Virus record (IMG/VR): IMGVR_UViG_3300025168_000038
Location: 1 to 64,000 of that record
Reading direction: 5' to 3' (one strand)
DNA length: 64,000 nucleotides
Origin: a virus
The translations under genes and the position numbers were made by a program. Positions 2,813-29,498 of this stretch are shown here, one piece after another; within the stretch, counting starts at the first letter, position 1, and each line of letters begins with the position of its first letter. The notes under the pieces were generated by a model. It ran no database searches. It saw only the letters and a list, made by a program, of their open reading frames with translations, and was not told where the DNA came from.

Positions 2813-5563
2813 CTATTTTTTATCATCAGATTTTCCAACATCATACTTATTTTTGTTTTCTCTTGCTATTTGAAGTTTAGTGTCAGCTATTTGTTTTTGT
2901 GCAGATATTTTCTCTCTTTCAACGTCTAACCTGCTACTCTCCATCATTTGTTTTGAATTAGATTCTTCACGTTTAAGATTCATTTGTTCTCTATACTGAG
3001 TAGTTTCTCTAATTTCTTTCATAGCATCTTGATAATCAGATTGTTGATTTTGATTAATATCTGCTGAAGCACCAAAACCTGCTGATCTAATTTCAGCTAA
3101 AGTAATATCATTCTGTCTGTCTTTATCATTTTCAGACATCTCTACTTGTAATTTTTGTTGTTCTTCTTGTGCTTTAGCTTCAAGTGCTTGTTGCTGCATT
3201 TGTTGTTGCTGCTGCATTTCTTGTTGACGTTGTTGTTGTTGTCTTACTTCTGAATCTTTTAATATGTCTGTTACTTCAGCAATTGAATCAGCTTTAACAA
3301 TATTTCCTAATTCATATATGCTTGCTCCAGTAGTATTATTAGTTAAAGCCATTTGCTTTAAGTTTTCTAGAATAGCTCTATGATTAGTTTTAGTTGTTGC
3401 AAAAATATTAAAATCTCTTAATAATAAATCTGTACCGTTTATGGTAAAATTAACCTTTTGTGCTTCTGTAGATATATAAGATAATCTAACACTTGGGTTA
3501 TTACTACAATAGTATTGTGCTAAGTCAGTTCTCATTTGATGCACTCTAGGCATTAATTGATCTGAATGCTGCACAAAATACATCTCTGTTTGAGCGTATG
3601 ATTGCTGCATAGCCTGGACTACCCCTGTTGCAGTTTGAGCTGATACAGCTCCTCCTAGACGTTGTGGGTTAATTCCTATGGCATCAAAGCATTGTTGTTT
3701 AAAGTAGTTTGCTAATTGGATTCTAGACATCAATCTACTAGTCTGCTCCATGTTCAAAGTTTGGTAATGATTGAAGTTGGTGGCATTCTCAGTATTAGTA
3801 ATTGAAGTATCTAAAGGTAACATTTGAAAATCTTTCATTGCTACCCATGCTTTTGCATAATTATTTTTACCCCAGTCTTCTCCCATTGAGTGACGTGGCA
3901 AAGCATTTTGATCAAACATGATTACTGTCCCTAATTCATCTATTAGAATGTCTGCAATTTGGTTGTTAACCATATTGTACCCAACTTGATATGCCTTCAT
4001 TAAATCTACTAATGAAGTTGATCTGGTATTTCTGTCTGAAAACACTCTCCCTTCTACAGGAAGTTTACATCCATAAAGTGTATTATTACCTTTAAACTGA
4101 AATGGTAATCTACCAGGTTTAGTTCTATTAATTCCTATATATATTGGGTTAATGTTATCCCCCATAGTTGATCTCCACATAGCTGGTAAATTTGGACCTA
4201 CCTTAACTCCACCCCATACTTCATTAATCCATATCCAATCTATATGCTCACCTTGTAAAAGATTTTCTTTTGTTTTGTTTTTAAAGATAGAAGTATCATA
4301 TACTGCTTTTTCAGTAATCTTAAATGTTTCATCAACTACTTCTTGTGTTACTTCACCATCATTTTCTATCTTAGTTAAATGACCTAACATACGTTGAGTC
4401 TTCCAATATATTGTTGAAACTCTCATTAAATTACCTTCATCTAAAGGAGTCATGTCTTCACTCTGATCTAGTATTTCACTTAGAATATCTCCTCCTGCTG
4501 ATGGATCATTCCAATAATTACTTGTGTATTGTCTATATGCTAAACCAGGCATTTGTGTATTCCACGCATGTGATCTAGTAGCATCATAGTATGAACCATC
4601 ATTTTGATAACCATTAACTTGATATTGTGCTGATCTTGCTGGATATATTTTTTGTAAAGATTCAAGTTGTTTCTTATCCATCAAATATCCATATCTATCA
4701 ACTACATCAGATACAGTCATAAGATCTACTTTACCTACATAGTTTGAATCTGCTATATATCTTTGATCTGGAGACTTTTGATAGAAGGTTAATACAGGAT
4801 TCCATAGCTCTACATCATAGTCATCTTCTAACATACGGAAATGCCAGAATTCTCTATCTGCTATAAGCATATCTCTAAATCCTCTTTCTTCTAGTTCTTG
4901 CATATGAAATCTTTCTTCATCTACTGCAAGTTGATGTGATGCCCATTCCTCTACCATACTTCTATAAGACTTACTAAAAAAGTCTTCTATTTCAGGTAAA
5001 GTTTTTAAATTTTCAGGTGATAGTTGTTTTAATCCTTCTTCTGATCCTGGGTTCATACCCATATCAAGCATCTTCATAGTAAGTTGTCTCTCAGCATCAG
5101 CTAATAAAGATTGCTCTACCTGCATTCTTTTTTGTTCAAGCATCTCATTATAGGATGCATCATCTACTGCTCTAAACTGAACCTTAGAATATCTTTTAGC
5201 AAACTCACCAGTTAATACATTTATAACATTTGGTACAATAGGGTAAAACTTTAATTCTAAAGCAGAGTCATTTTCTTTAGTAAGAACATCCATCATATCT
5301 TTATAATCATTGTCAGGTTCTACAATGTAATCTGTTTTATCTATTATACCTACAGCAAGTTTATAATTTTTTAAAAGTCTTCTTGCATTTAAACGTAAAA
5401 ATTCAATACCTTGTAATTCTAACCAATCAAGATTCCAAGCAGCCCAATCATCTGTTTTTTTAGAATATGGTAAAAATTGAGTTGGTTGTGTTAGACTTGA
5501 AAACGTAGGACCGCTTTCTGCCTTAGCACCATTCTTTAATTGCATTGCATTTAATACTCTCAT
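2813..5563 (-). CDS. Portal protein
   Basis: 916 residues, large for a portal but in the range of crAss-like and other podoviral portals. The portal is the dodecameric ring at the capsid vertex through which DNA enters and leaves and to which the tail joins. Evidence: it follows terminase by 5 bases on the same strand and precedes scaffold and capsid genes. The body is a mixed alpha/beta protein without membrane segments, followed by a Gln-rich stretch (about residues 770-815) and a long Lys/Glu-rich coiled coil to the C terminus, reminiscent of the barrel and C-terminal extensions of portals. It ends with TAG. No catalytic motif is expected; identity comes from context, size and architecture. 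Confidence 0.8.
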   Translation of the reverse strand: MRVLNAMQLKNGAKAESGPTFSSLTQPTQFLPYSKKTDDWAAWNLDWLELQGIEFLRLNARRLLKNYKLAVGIIDKTDYIVEPDNDYKDMMDVLTKENDSALELKFYPIVPNVINVLTGEFAKRYSKVQFRAVDDASYNEMLEQKRMQVEQSLLADAERQLTMKMLDMGMNPGSEEGLKQLSPENLKTLPEIEDFFSKSYRSMVEEWASHQLAVDEERFHMQELEERGFRDMLIADREFWHFRMLEDDYDVELWNPVLTFYQKSPDQRYIADSNYVGKVDLMTVSDVVDRYGYLMDKKQLESLQKIYPARSAQYQVNGYQNDGSYYDATRSHAWNTQMPGLAYRQYTSNYWNDPSAGGDILSEILDQSEDMTPLDEGNLMRVSTIYWKTQRMLGHLTKIENDGEVTQEVVDETFKITEKAVYDTSIFKNKTKENLLQGEHIDWIWINEVWGGVKVGPNLPAMWRSTMGDNINPIYIGINRTKPGRLPFQFKGNNTLYGCKLPVEGRVFSDRNTRSTSLVDLMKAYQVGYNMVNNQIADILIDELGTVIMFDQNALPRHSMGEDWGKNNYAKAWVAMKDFQMLPLDTSITNTENATNFNHYQTLNMEQTSRLMSRIQLANYFKQQCFDAIGINPQRLGGAVSAQTATGVVQAMQQSYAQTEMYFVQHSDQLMPRVHQMRTDLAQYYCSNNPSVRLSYISTEAQKVNFTINGTDLLLRDFNIFATTKTNHRAILENLKQMALTNNTTGASIYELGNIVKADSIAEVTDILKDSEVRQQQQRQQEMQQQQQMQQQALEAKAQEEQQKLQVEMSENDKDRQNDITLAEIRSAGFGASADINQNQQSDYQDAMKEIRETTQYREQMNLKREESNSKQMMESSRLDVEREKISAQKQIADTKLQIARENKNKYDVGKSDDKK

Positions 5564-13603: not shown

Positions 13604-13999
13604 ATGTTATATTTTTATTCCTTAAATCAAGGACAACGTACAGACGGTACTCAATTCCGTTCTATTATTGCAACTGACAAACCAGTTGCACAAACTAAGA
13701 CAGTATCAATAGGTACGCAATCTGCAGGTGCAGGTGCTAATCTAAGAGCTGTCAAATATGGTGCATTTAACCCACAAGATGACAATGGTCAACAGTTATC
13801 AGCTGACAATCCTTGGTGGGATAGTTTCATAGAAGATTTCTCCATTGATATGGAAAATCCTACTAGGTCTACTGAAAGATTTAAAACGTACCAAGGTAGC
13901 TTTGGTATATTGTCAGAAGATTTAGAACTGTCAGATACCAATGTAGTTAAATCAGATGGTACTACTGCAGATAATCTTTACTATGTGAAAACTAAGTAG
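13604..13999 (+). CDS. Hypothetical protein isolated in the control region
   Basis: 131 residues, soluble, Thr/Ser/Asp-rich (SIGTQSAGAGANLRAVKYGA), with no motif I recognise. It stands alone between two non-coding regions and is followed at once by a strong hairpin terminator, so it is a single-gene transcript, probably strongly expressed early. The A/T-rich start TTAATTATG lacks a Shine-Dalgarno site. A phage regulator or host-takeover protein would fit the position, but nothing in the sequence shows it. Confidence 0.7.
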   Translation: MLYFYSLNQGQRTDGTQFRSIIATDKPVAQTKTVSIGTQSAGAGANLRAVKYGAFNPQDDNGQQLSADNPWWDSFIEDFSIDMENPTRSTERFKTYQGSFGILSEDLELSDTNVVKSDGTTADNLYYVKTK

Positions 14000-14005
14000 A
14001 GTAAT

Positions 14006-14031
14006 AAGAGAGAGTGTAATAGCTCTCTCTT
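14006..14031 (+). terminator. Hairpin terminator
   Basis: AAGAGAGAG (14006-14014) pairs perfectly with CTCTCTCTT (14023-14031) around an 8-base loop, followed by TGTTTTTCT. It lies 7 bases after the stop at 13999. Confidence 0.8.
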
Positions 14032-14389
14032 TGTTTTTCTTATGCAATCTGTCACATGTTTGTGGTTTTCCACTACATACTGACACATGTTTCCCGTTTT
14101 GCTCTCCTTTCCTCTTGTTTGCTCCCTTTCTTTTGATTGTATGCATAACATGTACATTAAAGTGAGTGTTAAACTGTATGTACCTGGTCTCATATCCACA
14201 TATTACCACTATTTACCACATAATAATAATCATAGCTACTTATAATATATATATAGCTAGCAACAATACAAGTGTAACTATTACACACAACAATACAACA
14301 AGGGTAGTCTATGTCTCTCTCTCTATAGGATAATAGACATAGTACCCGGAATCTTATCAAATAATCTCTAACCAATAACAAAAACAATT
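14032..14389. other. Long non-coding region: direct repeats, pyrimidine tract, leader
   Basis: Bases 14032-14389 hold no supportable gene. They contain a direct repeat CTGWCACATGTTT (14049-14061 and 14080-14092, 31 bases apart, one mismatch), a pyrimidine-rich tract with two TTTGCTCYC copies (14097-14135) that echo one in the 13374-13603 region, an AT-rich stretch with TATATATATA, and a leader hairpin before the LRR gene. The asymmetry and repeats suggest a replication origin or a strong promoter region; neither is proven. Confidence 0.5.
14302..14347 (+). promoter_or_regulatory. Structured leader hairpin before the LRR gene
   Basis: GGGTA and CTATGTCT (14302-14316, two-base GU bulge) pair with AGACATAG and TACCC (14335-14347), a 13-pair stem with an 18-base loop. 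No T-run follows, so it is a leader structure and not a terminator. It ends 42 bases before the ATG at 14390. Confidence 0.55.
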
Positions 14390-15010
14390 ATGAAAAAACT
14401 ATTAATAATCTTATTCATGCCATTAATATCTATGGCACAACAACAAACATATGTACCAGATGATAACTTTGAGGCTGCCTTAGAGTATCTTGGTATAGGT
14501 AACGGAATACCAAATGATGACTTTGTCACTACATCTAACATAAGTGACATAACAAATCTATTAATATATAGTCAAGGTATAGCTGACCTAACAGGCATAG
14601 AAGACTTCCTTAGTTTAAGAGGCCTGAGTGTTCAGGATAACCAATTAACAAGTATAGATCTCAGTAATAATATTGCTTTAAAGATTTTAGATATTAATGA
14701 TAACCAGCTTACACAACTTGATCTAAGCAATAATCCTTTGATAGAAGTACTTCATGCATTCAACAATCCAGGCTTGGAATGTATAAATGTGTATGATATA
14801 ACACAAGCAAATACTTGGTATCCTGCTGTTCTTGATAACAATCAATACTTCAGTGAATCATGCATGTTAACAGACGTAGCTGAAACATACCAGTATAGAA
14901 GACTCGTAAAGATAATAGATCTATGGGGTAATGATGTAGTCAAATATAATCAGGCTGTCTTCTTTATCTATGATGATGGAAGCGTAGAAAGAAAAGTAAT
15001 AATCCAATAA
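14390..15010 (+). CDS. Secreted leucine-rich-repeat protein with flavobacterial-type C terminus
   Basis: 206 residues. A signal peptide spans residues 1-16 (MKKLLIILFMPLISMA), followed by QTYVPDDNFEAALEYLGIG, a start typical of exported flavobacterial LRR proteins. LRR units run from about residue 55 to 125 (LRGLSVQDNQLTSIDLSNN; LDINDNQLTQLDLSNNP). A LECINVYD...YFSESC cap follows, and residues 170-206 (VKIIDLWGNDVV, FFIYDDGSVERKVII) resemble the type-A C-terminal sorting signal of the type IX secretion system. It is the first gene of the early operon, just after a structured leader. Acquisition from a host is likely. It may alter the cell surface or block rival phages; that is inference. Confidence 0.85.
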   Translation: MKKLLIILFMPLISMAQQQTYVPDDNFEAALEYLGIGNGIPNDDFVTTSNISDITNLLIYSQGIADLTGIEDFLSLRGLSVQDNQLTSIDLSNNIALKILDINDNQLTQLDLSNNPLIEVLHAFNNPGLECINVYDITQANTWYPAVLDNNQYFSESCMLTDVAETYQYRRLVKIIDLWGNDVVKYNQAVFFIYDDGSVERKVIIQ

Positions 15011-15020
15011 ATCCGTTATC

Positions 15021-15254
15021 ATGAATCAAAAACAATATGAATCTTTATTAAGATATCTTAGTGAAGAAAGAGCACACCTCAAATTTAAGGAGGATGCAGT
15101 AGAATTAAACACGTATACGGGTGACATTGAGTTTACCCATCATGCAAATAAATATATCAGAGCTGAAGAAGGAGTGTTAGAAATGACCTTTGAACAGTTC
15201 GGATTCAAACCCAAGCAAAGCTTATTAGATAGACTTAAGTGTCTGTTTAATTAA
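15021..15254 (+). CDS. Hypothetical protein
   Basis: 77 residues, acidic, mostly helical (YESLLRYLSEERAHLKFKED), no membrane segment. It lies 10 bases after the LRR gene. No family recognised. Confidence 0.6.
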   Translation: MNQKQYESLLRYLSEERAHLKFKEDAVELNTYTGDIEFTHHANKYIRAEEGVLEMTFEQFGFKPKQSLLDRLKCLFN

Positions 15255-17457: not shown

Positions 17458-17979
17458 ATGCTATCACAAAAACAATTACAAAAACTAGATCAACAGAAAC
17501 AACTAAATCTCTTAAAGTTGAGAGAAGAACGTTACCAATACTATGGTTTACTCAGTGAGTATCAATTACATCCTGAATCTATAGTAAATTCACTAAATTA
17601 TTCAAAACTAAACAAGTATCAAGTGTTCTTATTTAAAAGAGTACTACATGGTCTCAATGTCTACAAGCCTGATGAAGTTCAAAAGCTTCACTGGGATAAG
17701 AAACGTAGAATAAGCAGAGTATGGAGAAGAGCACAAAAAGAAATAAATGCTTGGAAACAAACCATTTGTAATAAGAAAGTAAATGCTTATCTTCGTAAGA
17801 CTTTTACAGGTAAAACAGTAGAATATATACTGTCTGTACCTGCAGAAGAAACATTAGAGGATTACAATAACACTATGACTTTCAAGGAGTTAGGTATTAA
17901 CTATGAAGATGTTATACTTAAGTTCTTATCATTAGGGTTATTGCCTAGAAACTTTTTTACAATAACAAATGGGAATTAA
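17458..17979 (+). CDS. Hypothetical basic protein
   Basis: 173 residues, basic, helical N terminus (QKQLQKLDQQKQLNLLKLRE), with Arg/Lys-rich middle (WDKKRRISRVWRRAQKE) that could bind nucleic acid. It overlaps the HNH-like gene by 11 bases. No family recognised. Confidence 0.65.
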   Translation: MLSQKQLQKLDQQKQLNLLKLREERYQYYGLLSEYQLHPESIVNSLNYSKLNKYQVFLFKRVLHGLNVYKPDEVQKLHWDKKRRISRVWRRAQKEINAWKQTICNKKVNAYLRKTFTGKTVEYILSVPAEETLEDYNNTMTFKELGINYEDVILKFLSLGLLPRNFFTITNGN

Positions 17980-26774: not shown

Positions 26775-27066
26775 TGAGTTTTTTATGCTAAAGAAAATGA
26801 TCTCAGCTTCCAAAGAAGACTTAGAAGTTGCTTTGGCTATATGGACTACCCAGTTTAAAGATAGAGAAATTTTAGATAGATTAATGTGTAAGGCATTAGC
26901 TTTTGATAAAAGAGTAAACTTCTCTATTGCTGTAGAGTATACTTTTACATACAAGGGATACAATTCTATGTCTGATATGAGTACACATAAAATACATGCA
27001 TATATAAATGGAAAGAAACTAAATGATGTATATAATAAAATATTAAAAAAGATAACAGATGATTAA
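26752..27066 (+). CDS. Hypothetical protein
   Basis: 104 residues, mostly helical (LDEFFMLKKMISASKEDLEV) with a beta hairpin near the end. It overlaps RusA by 23 bases and the metallopeptidase gene by 8. No family recognised. Confidence 0.6.
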   Translation: MKKIISLDEFFMLKKMISASKEDLEVALAIWTTQFKDREILDRLMCKALAFDKRVNFSIAVEYTFTYKGYNSMSDMSTHKIHAYINGKKLNDVYNKILKKITDD

Positions 27067-28222
27067 TATACAAGATCAGGTTGCTAGAACAACTAAAACT
27101 CTAATATTTGATGAGCCCTTTTATGGGCTCTTTTTGATTGGTATCAATAAGAAGTACAGTTTACATATACCTACTGCTGGTGTAAGCAAACATGGTATTG
27201 GTATGCAATTGACTATAAACCCAGAGTTCTTTACAGAGCTCAAGCCGGAAGAAAGATATGGCTTAATAAAACATGAGTTATTACATATAGCTTTTGGACA
27301 CTTAATTTTAAGAGACAAGTATTCTAATCATAAACTATTTAATATAGCTGCTGATTTAGAAATTAACCAATACATATTGGAAAGCAATCTACCAGAAGGA
27401 GGATTGTTATTGTCAAGTTTCCCAGAGCTTAATTTACCTAAAAAAGCAGGTACAAGTAAATATTATGAACTTTTACAACAAGCACAGCAAGATGGTACAA
27501 GCCCTACGTTAGATTCTTTAATGAGTCAAATGGATGGTACTACACCACATTGTCATAGCACATGGAATGAGTTTAATGATTTATCTGAAGCTGAGAAGAA
27601 GCTAGTAGAAAAACAAATTGAACATCAACTAAAAGAATCTGCTGAACAAACCATTAAAAGATCTGGTACGGTACCTGGTGAGTTAGCTGATCTTATAAGG
27701 AAGCTTACACATGTTGAGCCTGCTAAATTTGATTGGAAAGGATACTTAAGAAGATTTGTTGGTAATTCTAGTGTGGTGTATACTAAAAAGTTAAGACGTA
27801 AGTATAACAAACGGTATGCAGCTAATCCTGGCCTTAAAATTAAGTTTAAGAATCATATACTCGTTGGTGTTGATACTAGTGGTTCAGTCAACAATGAAGA
27901 GTTAACAGAATTCTTTAGTGAATTAACACACATGCACAAGACAGGCCACAAAATTACCGTAGCACAATGTGATACACGCTTAGGAAGCGTGAAGGAATTT
28001 AAACCTAATCAAGATTGGGAAATACATGGTCGTGGTGGAACTAGCTTTCAACCAGTTATTGATCACTACAATGAAAAGAAAGGGCAATATACAGCTCTAA
28101 TATATTTAACAGATGGTGAAGCATATGCACCTGAAGATTGTCCAAAGAATACCTTATGGTGTTTGAGTAGTATATCTCAGATGAATGATGAGTTACCAGG
28201 AAAAGTAATAAAATTTAATTAA
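27059..28222 (+). CDS. Putative metallopeptidase with VWA domain (DUF2201-like)
   Basis: 387 residues with two parts. Residues 60-100 hold LIKHELLHIAFGH, a zinc-peptidase HExxH helix (HELLH at 72-76). The C-terminal 130 residues form a von Willebrand A domain with the MIDAS start VGVDTSGSVN and later THMHKTGHKITVAQCD and GGTSFQPV strands. This pairing is known as DUF2201. It is followed 7 bases later by a MoxR-like ATPase; VWA-MoxR pairs act as chaperone-like or activating modules in many bacteria. Its phage role is unknown. Confidence 0.8.
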   Translation: MINIQDQVARTTKTLIFDEPFYGLFLIGINKKYSLHIPTAGVSKHGIGMQLTINPEFFTELKPEERYGLIKHELLHIAFGHLILRDKYSNHKLFNIAADLEINQYILESNLPEGGLLLSSFPELNLPKKAGTSKYYELLQQAQQDGTSPTLDSLMSQMDGTTPHCHSTWNEFNDLSEAEKKLVEKQIEHQLKESAEQTIKRSGTVPGELADLIRKLTHVEPAKFDWKGYLRRFVGNSSVVYTKKLRRKYNKRYAANPGLKIKFKNHILVGVDTSGSVNNEELTEFFSELTHMHKTGHKITVAQCDTRLGSVKEFKPNQDWEIHGRGGTSFQPVIDHYNEKKGQYTALIYLTDGEAYAPEDCPKNTLWCLSSISQMNDELPGKVIKFN

Positions 28223-28229
28223 TAAAAAA

Positions 28230-29498
28230 ATGGCACAAGTAAATTTAAACGTAACAGAATTAAAAGGTTTTGTAAATCATATAATAACTAATAATAGATT
28301 TCTACAACAAGGAGGAAAACATCCTGTATCAGTAGAAGTAGTAGGTGAATCAGGTATTGGTAAAACCTCAAGTATTGTTGAACTAGCATCAGAAAATAAT
28401 CTGAAATTTGTTAAGTTAAACTTGGCTCAGATAGAAGAGCTAGGTGATCTTGTTGGCTTTCCAGTACGTCAGTTTCAAATGTATAAAGAAAAGATAGTAC
28501 AACCAAAAAACAATAATGTAAACATGGTAACTGCAACACAAAGAGCAGCAGGTACTAGTCTAGCTAATCTAAACTCTTCAGTAACTAAAAAAGTAGGAAT
28601 GTGGGTTGATGAGTTGGCTGTACAAGAGTACTTAAAGCAGGGTTATAAAATGACAGGTAAGAATAGAATGTCTTATTGTGCTCCAGAGTGGATTGCTGAT
28701 GCAAAGGCCGGTGGTATCTTATTACTAGATGACTGGAACCGTGCAGATACAAGGTTTATTCAAGCAGTTATGGAATTAATAGACAGACAAACATATATCT
28801 CATGGACTTTACCAAAGGATTGGCATATTATACTTACAGCTAACCCGGATAATGGTGACTACATGGTTAATACTGTAGACAGTGCACAGAAGACTAGATA
28901 TATTACTGCAAACTTAAAGTTTGATGTAAATGTATGGGCACAGTGGGCAGAGGGTGCAGGTATTGACACAAGATGTATTAACTTCTTACTGTTGAATCCA
29001 GAACTAGTAACTCAAGAAACAAATGCAAGGTCTATTACAACATTCTTTAATGCTATATCAAGTTTTGATAACTTTGAAGATAATCTAAGTATTATACAAA
29101 TGATTGGTGAAGGTAGTGTTGGTGATGAGTTTGCATCAATGTTTACAACGTTTATAAATAATAAACTAGATAAGCTGGTTACTCCTAAAGATTTATTGAC
29201 ACATGATAATGAGTCATATATTCTTGGTGAGTTAAGAGGTTGTATAGGAGAGGATGATAGTTACCGTGCAGACATTGCATCAACGTTATCAACTAGGCTA
29301 GCTAACTTTGCAGTTGTATATTCAAAAGAAAATACAATAAACCAAAAGATTACTGACAGACTTATATCATTATGTACAAAAGATTATTTTACTAATGACC
29401 TTAAGTACTTGATAGTTAGAACAATCTTCAGTGGTAATAAACAGAAGTTTAATAAAATGATGATGAATCCAGAAATAATTAAAATGACAATTAAATAA
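28230..29498 (+). CDS. MoxR-like AAA ATPase
   Basis: 422 residues. GESGIGKT (39-46) is Walker A, GILLLDDWNRAD (about 161-172) is Walker B, and HIILTANPDN is the sensor-1 strand, the pattern of MoxR/dynein-related AAA ATPases. These usually remodel or activate a VWA partner, here the gene directly upstream. The C-terminal part is helical and family-specific. Together they may load or disassemble a protein complex during replication or takeover. Confidence 0.82.
   Translation: MAQVNLNVTELKGFVNHIITNNRFLQQGGKHPVSVEVVGESGIGKTSSIVELASENNLKFVKLNLAQIEELGDLVGFPVRQFQMYKEKIVQPKNNNVNMVTATQRAAGTSLANLNSSVTKKVGMWVDELAVQEYLKQGYKMTGKNRMSYCAPEWIADAKAGGILLLDDWNRADTRFIQAVMELIDRQTYISWTLPKDWHIILTANPDNGDYMVNTVDSAQKTRYITANLKFDVNVWAQWAEGAGIDTRCINFLLLNPELVTQETNARSITTFFNAISSFDNFEDNLSIIQMIGEGSVGDEFASMFTTFINNKLDKLVTPKDLLTHDNESYILGELRGCIGEDDSYRADIASTLSTRLANFAVVYSKENTINQKITDRLISLCTKDYFTNDLKYLIVRTIFSGNKQKFNKMMMNPEIIKMTIK

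Follow-up and report, generated by a model that had tools for sequence, protein, structure and literature searches.

Phage-encoded cargo of the T9SS has precedents among Bacteroidetes phages. The passages of two papers that treat the subject report three Cryophage genes with T9SS type A sorting domains, for which superinfection exclusion was already suggested (PMC7468147), and T9SS sorting domains in contigs of crAss-BACON phages (PMC6949934). Compared by description with these passages, the locus analyzed here resembles the Cryophage case in having T9SS-like tails on phage genes, cargo that varies between phage variants, and exclusion as the proposed use, and it resembles crAss-BACON cluster 2 in linking Bacteroidetes phages with tails of this type. 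It differs from the former, whose cargo consists of endoglucanase, GH39, and PA14 proteins with type A domains, whereas here a probable crAss-like phage encodes an LRR protein with a short tail that is not among the listed types, and from the latter, which are gut phages with BACON proteins at another locus. The preliminary description of this DNA presented a cell-surface-type protein made through the T9SS as what would be a novel form of surface remodeling, superinfection exclusion, or decoy, a priority that these accounts already take away. As far as literature searches go, three elements are new, namely the family of short tails, the occurrence of such tails on two kinds of protein from marine phages, and the envelope-cargo locus: the tail motif was absent from open-licence PMC text, the searches returned no paper joining LRR, phage, superinfection exclusion, and Bacteroidetes, and the T9SS passages of two further phage papers (PMC10013915 and PMC13269007) hold nothing on phage cargo.

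Two further comparisons concern fold and mode of action. Internalin J has the same LRR domain by sequence and by fold, a likeness that shows no function, and the phage LRR protein differs from it in having fewer repeats and a flavobacterial tail. The Llp protein of phage T5 and the Imm protein of phage T4 are small envelope exclusion proteins of infected cells. They are comparable solely in how they work, given that relatives of the phage studied here carry small lipoproteins and two-TM proteins nearby; the LRR protein exceeds them in size and would work outside, and we claim no sequence relation.

The analyzed stretch of 64,000 bases, hereafter the window, corresponds to bases 1-64000 of a 108,143-base IMG/VR virus record. 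Kin of its terminase were found in 134 records, with cr55_1 the closest gut phage (26.9%) and Flavobacterium phage FPSV at 28.1%, and kin of its portal in 128 (Cellulophaga phage phi17:2, 27.0%), and because both proteins resemble those of gut crAss-like, Flavobacterium, and Cellulophaga phages at 27% to 28% identity, we assign the virus to the crAss-like phages by this kinship. The kin of the LRR protein and of its tail point to marine Flavobacteriales as the probable hosts. Among named phages, kin of the LRR protein were confined to 13 records (10 Listeria, 2 "Bacteriophage sp.", and 1 Clostridioides), which cover at most 51% of the protein and all lack the tail, and the tail itself gave a single match (E = 4).

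Table 1. Features of the LRR gene and its surroundings, in window coordinates.
Feature	Position	Strand	Basis or remark
131-aa ORF ahead of control region	13604..13999	+	conserved neighbor in close relatives
Control region, non-coding, conserved, 390 bases	14000..14389	+	70-86% identical in four other phages
Terminator-like hairpin, then T run, after 131-aa gene	14006..14031	+	hairpin scan
Conserved element ATTACCACTATTTACCAC in control region	14202-14219	+	several phages
Conserved element CTATAGGATAATAG in control region	14323-14336	+	several phages
Secreted LRR protein gene, 206 aa, short C-terminal tail	14390..15010	+	ATG start; exact ORF coordinates
Predicted signal peptide, residues 1-16, MKKLLIILFMPLISMA, cut before Q	14390..14437	+	sequence, hydrophobicity test
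Internalin-like LRR domain, N-cap (PDDNFE) and C-cap, residues 18-158	14441..14863	+	sequence, AlphaFold2 model
Short sorting-type tail, residues 165-206	14882..15007	+	host-only profile; predicted strands 172-176, 189-194, 199-203
77-aa ORF directly after LRR gene	15021..15254	+	no Pfam match at E up to 0.1

The predicted signal peptide of the LRR protein (Table 1), which the preliminary description had proposed, passes a simple hydrophobicity test (an earlier, cruder test forbade proline, and the protein failed there) and is near-invariant in the phage relatives where it is whole. The description of the gene as a phage-borne LRR protein of exported type was likewise borne out: Pfam LRR_4 matched with E = 1.8e-5 and 25.3 bits, below the gathering score of 27; internalin J was matched by phmmer at 9.7e-18; and an AlphaFold2 model built from 47 sequences (pLDDT 84.7) has the internalin fold, aligning with internalin J (3bz5) in VIA with Z 15.1 and rmsd 3.2 over 134 residues. 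As modeled, the domain is an internalin-like LRR fold. The tail, which closes with IYDDGSVERKVIIQ at the C-terminus, was predicted to form a three-stranded meander when modeled alone. A PDB fold search with the tail alone returned no useful match and no T9SS CTD among the 50 Foldseek and 8 VIA matches listed, and a host-tail profile compared with solved chains gave nothing of note.

The LRR gene heads the plus-strand replication region. It had been called the first early gene, a name that is upheld only in part: it is the first ORF past the hairpin and the control region, but the 131-aa ORF on the same strand precedes it. Identity of the control region to the window is 83-86% in L004, L006, and L009 and 70% in L008, and its two conserved elements may be candidates for a promoter, operator, or origin. 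The hairpin scan found one structure against 0.9 expected in shuffles, which is weak by itself; the stem is kept, by eye, in four of the five aligned phages and altered in L006. An Rfam scan of the window gave nothing at gathering scores. In L008, a 111-aa ORF with hydrophobic stretches takes the place of the 77-aa ORF.

The C-terminal module, about 40 aa long, links the phage protein to a large set of host proteins. A profile of 51 host tails from which phage sequences were excluded (A7) gave one match across the 108 kb record, the tail of the LRR protein (E = 7.4e-15). It also picked out a single tail per contig in a set of 14 from phages, 6 with the LRR protein and 8 with the second protein kind described below, and hhalign joined phage tails with host-only tails at E = 1.7e-21. 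The phage tail thus groups with the tails of flavobacterial exported proteins, in agreement with the earlier remark that its IYDDGSVERKVII form is theirs; a second profile (A5) includes nine phage tails, so the grouping based on it is partly circular. A degenerate DNA pattern found 32 stretches in viral contigs, of which 8 belong to LRR contigs, 23 to a second protein kind, and 1 (L045) is a chance match, and 358 stretches in prokaryote genomes, 308 of them confirmed as tails. The best 80 of these 308 fall in 78 loci, every one of which has Flavobacteriales, Cryomorphaceae, Polaribacter, or Bacteroidetes in its title, and within these 78 loci the motif lies 7 residues from the stop in 75 of 81 complete motif-bearing ORFs (≥100 aa) and 6, 8, or 9 residues from it in the other 6. 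Signal-peptide-like starts are found in 74 of the 81, compared with 76 of the 196 other ORFs with a length of 200 aa or more (68/81 and 79/196 by the cruder test, whose figures we do not use). The domains ahead of the host tail are diverse, including LRR, SprB repeats, esterases, arylsulfotransferase, CotH, and GH16 (70 proteins scanned), and some genomes hold at least 37 copies. Taken as a sequence family, the tail is probably an unannotated outer-membrane export signal common to hundreds of host proteins.

Whether this signal is one of the T9SS was assessed against the known signal types. The preliminary description had termed the tail T9SS-like and suggested a search for TIGR04183-type sorting domains; the tail is not one of these, as neither TIGR04183 (E up to 10) nor PF18962 (E up to 1) matches the phage protein. 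Type B (TIGR04131) and type C (NF033708) models gave no match in it either at E up to 10, nor, with E limited to 1, do they appear among the matches listed for 25 LRR homologues that end in the short tail. With the same limit, TIGR04183 matched 3 of the 70 short-tail proteins from hosts, the lowest E being 0.0035, and it matched 1 of the 25 LRR homologues (E = 0.13). Type A domains begin at the YPNP motif and run for about 72 profile positions up to the C-terminus, whereas the phage tail, at about 40 residues, lacks the PNP start and the middle part, and the model is blind to it. The two are alike in being C-terminal, in having a signal peptide ahead, in occurring on diverse Bacteroidota proteins, and in an alignable "DxxGR" strand. 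Against a type A set chosen for its PNP motif (A6; 25 of 30 loci), which itself reaches solved type A CTDs, hhalign gave E values of 1e-4 to 1e-3 with probabilities of only 20-58%, beating 199 of 200 column shuffles with host tails and 200 of 200 with phage tails. The host-only comparison aligned 20 columns at the "DxxGR" strand, one of the 200 shuffles scoring equally high, and two other comparisons aligned the final strand too; at the sequence level, the similarity to type A is weak.

Each of the 12 tail genomes scanned has between 31 and 137 matches to type A domains, and SprA is found in 10 of the 12. Across 196 genomes of the order, SprA accompanies the tail in 67 of 70 cases and is present in 93 of the remaining 126 genomes (Fisher 8e-5; 2 × 2 table compiled by hand from match listings). 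Phylogeny confounds this association, as do reduced genomes that lack SprA; the three tail genomes that lack it (G001, G108, and G172) have 1.3-1.5 Mb of sequence each. Among 51 complete LRR homologues, a non-random sample from the 30 best loci and 20 chosen stretches with 4 stretch-cut ORFs left out, 25 end in the short tail (23 called by regular expression and 2, L172 and L181, by eye), and of the other 26, TIGR04183 matched 21 and TIGR04131 matched 4, the type C model matching 7 of the 26 also or instead. Because the homologues divide in this way (25/21/4), the same LRR family uses short, type A, and type B tails in one slot, the short and type A tails mostly splitting by lineage, the former in small marine genomes and the latter mostly in genomes of 3-5 Mb. 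The relevant passages of two papers state that the last 22 residues of a CTD hold enough information for secretion (PMC10202324 and PMC5445135). Judged as T9SS cargo in the wide sense, the phage protein has a Sec signal peptide, as scored by the hydrophobicity test alone, and a C-terminal module common to unrelated domains in T9SS genomes. We keep "T9SS-like" as the best reading of the tail and regard it as probably a reduced or parallel T9SS signal.

The phage gene is related, by sequence, to genes of the likely hosts. The phage protein has matches at E up to 1e-5 in 77 of the 196 genomes, and full-length homologues of about 205 residues, with 38-46% identity, occur in at least 20. In a tree of 34 proteins (7 from phages, 18 of 20 full-length host homologues, L164 and L172 being absent, and 9 longer host LRR proteins), those from phages group together in a single clade (100/99), whose long branch arises among host LRR-short-tail proteins. 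This clade joins the longer host proteins, not the 205-aa family, but with weak support (78/92). With the tree rooted at its midpoint, the direction of transfer is presumptive.

Relatives of the LRR protein were found in eight IMG/VR loci at 53-100% identity, those in L002 and L003 being 100% identical to the window protein; seven phage proteins, the window protein included, were aligned. The L008 gene is 86% identical to that of the window in nucleotides, while its coding neighbors are 45-77% identical; conversely, the L009 gene is 65% identical, with three neighbors and the control region at 80-87%. Because the identities of gene and neighbors disagree in this way, LRR alleles have moved between phage backbones. 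Relative to L009, dN is 0.60 in the LRRs and about 1.5 in the C-cap, as opposed to 0.03 in the signal peptide and 0.15 in the tail. When six close copies are compared, variation affects 17 of the 20 LRR positions on the concave face and 19 of the 61 elsewhere in the LRRs (p = 5e-5). This does not establish positive selection on that face, given a dN/dS of 0.59 at its codons with dS raised too, and allele exchange or relaxed constraint fits the variation equally well. In these close copies, the tail (pN 0.069, dN/dS 0.39) is kept no better than the non-concave LRR positions (0.072 and 0.22), its contrast with the LRRs appearing only against L009. Separately, L006 (1262-2041) carries about 54 codons inserted in frame within the signal peptide, after MKQL; a TTG codon past the insert might serve as start, and the insert could also be an assembly fault.

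The surroundings of the gene were surveyed in 30 loci with relatives of the 173-aa gene at 17458-17979, several of them near-identical contigs, so that counts are not independent; 25 have at least 3.2 kb upstream. Four of the 25 carry LRR and tail, all in contigs already found through the LRR protein, and each of the other 21 has some signal-peptide-like, lipoprotein-like, or membrane ORF by a heuristic whose signal-peptide flag also marks overlapping ORFs that are possibly not genes. A regular-expression search over 4.5 kb upstream, which misses some 111-aa ORFs (L221-L224 and L236), picked out a small lipoprotein in 18 of the 25 loci and, in 14, a two-TM protein with a length of 105-122 aa; 6 loci encode a secreted protein 274-277 aa long, and the two tested are DUF4846. 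In L213-L236, two-TM and DUF4846 secreted proteins stand at the place of the window's LRR gene, and L008 combines a lipoprotein, the LRR gene, and a two-TM gene. A perfect copy (14/14) of the element CTATAGGATAATAG precedes the LRR gene in the window and in L008, L209, L234, and L237, and in L211 the element matches at 13/14; among the 21 non-LRR loci it is intact in 7 (L213-L219) and at 13/14 in 2, and because its best match in the remaining 12 is only 10-11 of 14, correspondence of place in those loci is judged by distance alone. From its gene content, the LRR place looks like a variable envelope-cargo locus, and such loci may, by analogy, serve exclusion. The small lipoproteins of L213-L236 are 47-61 aa long, several of SCGSSR type, and lie about 2.5-4 kb upstream of the 173-aa gene.

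The same short tail occurs on a second kind of secreted phage protein, found at 23 loci within L017-L048, with GCTDPSMFNYNP-type repeats and a length of about 600-920 aa where complete. The N-terminus is present in 18 of the 23 and is signal-peptide-like by eye; the other 5 are cut. The protein in L041 has a MAM domain. A very large ORF (1305-3758 aa) was found in five of the eight loci of this kind whose ORFs were listed. A PHROGs scan of eight neighbor proteins from five of these loci identified two exonucleases in L017, ribonucleotide reductase and Holliday junction resolvase in L044, and one weak match in L046, with no match for the remaining three. The GCTD-type protein of L046 gave no match among named phages.

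The account that we favor, with somewhat better than even confidence, is that a crAss-like phage infecting marine Flavobacteriales uses its LRR gene, which has kin in the hosts, to remodel the surface of the infected cell through a T9SS-exported product. Sec would export the protein via its signal peptide, a step we propose with high confidence; the host T9SS would then, probably, recognize the short module as a reduced type-A-like signal and bring the LRR domain to the surface or outside, where the LRR face would bind a partner. Because relatives carry envelope-type ORFs nearby and LRR alleles are exchanged, surface remodeling seems the most likely use, either as receptor masking or other exclusion of competing phages, or as altered contact between cells or between cells and particles. 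The superinfection exclusion or surface remodeling put forward in the preliminary description is accordingly plausible by analogy, although masking of a receptor or another form of exclusion, taken by itself, falls somewhat short of an even chance. Still more tentative is the broader proposal that the tail constitutes a separate, fourth class of T9SS signal, found on hundreds of surface proteins of marine Flavobacteriales, and that marine crAss-like phages took it over to display exchanged LRR receptors on infected cells from a locus dedicated to envelope cargo, these receptors being one option among several exclusion proteins. Should the tail indeed direct export, current T9SS models miss many surface proteins of marine Flavobacteriales, and phages can be recognized as remodeling host surfaces via the host secretion system; the virus may redecorate the surface of the infected cell, and the locus offers testable candidate exclusion proteins in crAss-like marine phages (LRR, small lipoproteins, two-TM, and DUF4846).

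The most serious competitor concerns use: as host-derived cargo, the protein would give the infected cell a function that hosts normally have, for instance adhesion to particles or algae. Full-length host homologues in at least 20 of 196 genomes and the placement of the phage proteins among host proteins in the tree speak for this, but the small lipoproteins, two-TM, and DUF4846 proteins that relatives of the phage have close to this position instead are more like an envelope-defense set, and the LRR allele is exchanged between phages, so we rate such cargo as unlikely, if still a sizable possibility. Less probable again is that the tail is another C-terminal element, such as a tag that anchors proteins to the outer membrane or LPS or one that retains them in the periplasm, with the protein periplasmic or bound to the outer membrane. 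Curated T9SS models do miss the phage tail and nearly all host tails, the type A similarity is marginal, and the same genomes retain many ordinary type A domains, so another job is possible; what tells against it is that, among the LRR homologues, the short tail fills the slot otherwise taken by type A or type B domains, with the motif 6-9 residues from the stop in 81 of 81 complete ORFs and SprA in 67 of 70 tail genomes.

LRR and Ig-like folds occur on virions, and the second tail family lies near a very large ORF in five of the eight loci listed, as might be expected were the LRR protein a decoration or receptor-binding accessory of the virion; we consider this very improbable in view of its signal peptide and export-type tail and of its position in the plus-strand replication-side region, away from the minus-strand portal and terminase genes. 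An assembly chimera or host contamination is scarcely credible despite the metagenomic origin and the complete identity of the L002 and L003 proteins to that of the window, because the gene occupies the same place in other contigs at 82-86% protein identity and in a phage with a diverged backbone, a conserved position that largely rules such an artifact out.

Elsewhere in the window, the best named match of the portal (2813-5563) is Leptolyngbya phage Lbo-JY46, at 33.1% and above the flavobacterial phages. The protein encoded at 27059-28222 combines a DUF2201 metallopeptidase domain (Pfam 1.5e-19) with a VWA-like domain (7e-15) and adjoins, at 28230-29498, a protein with weak AAA matches.
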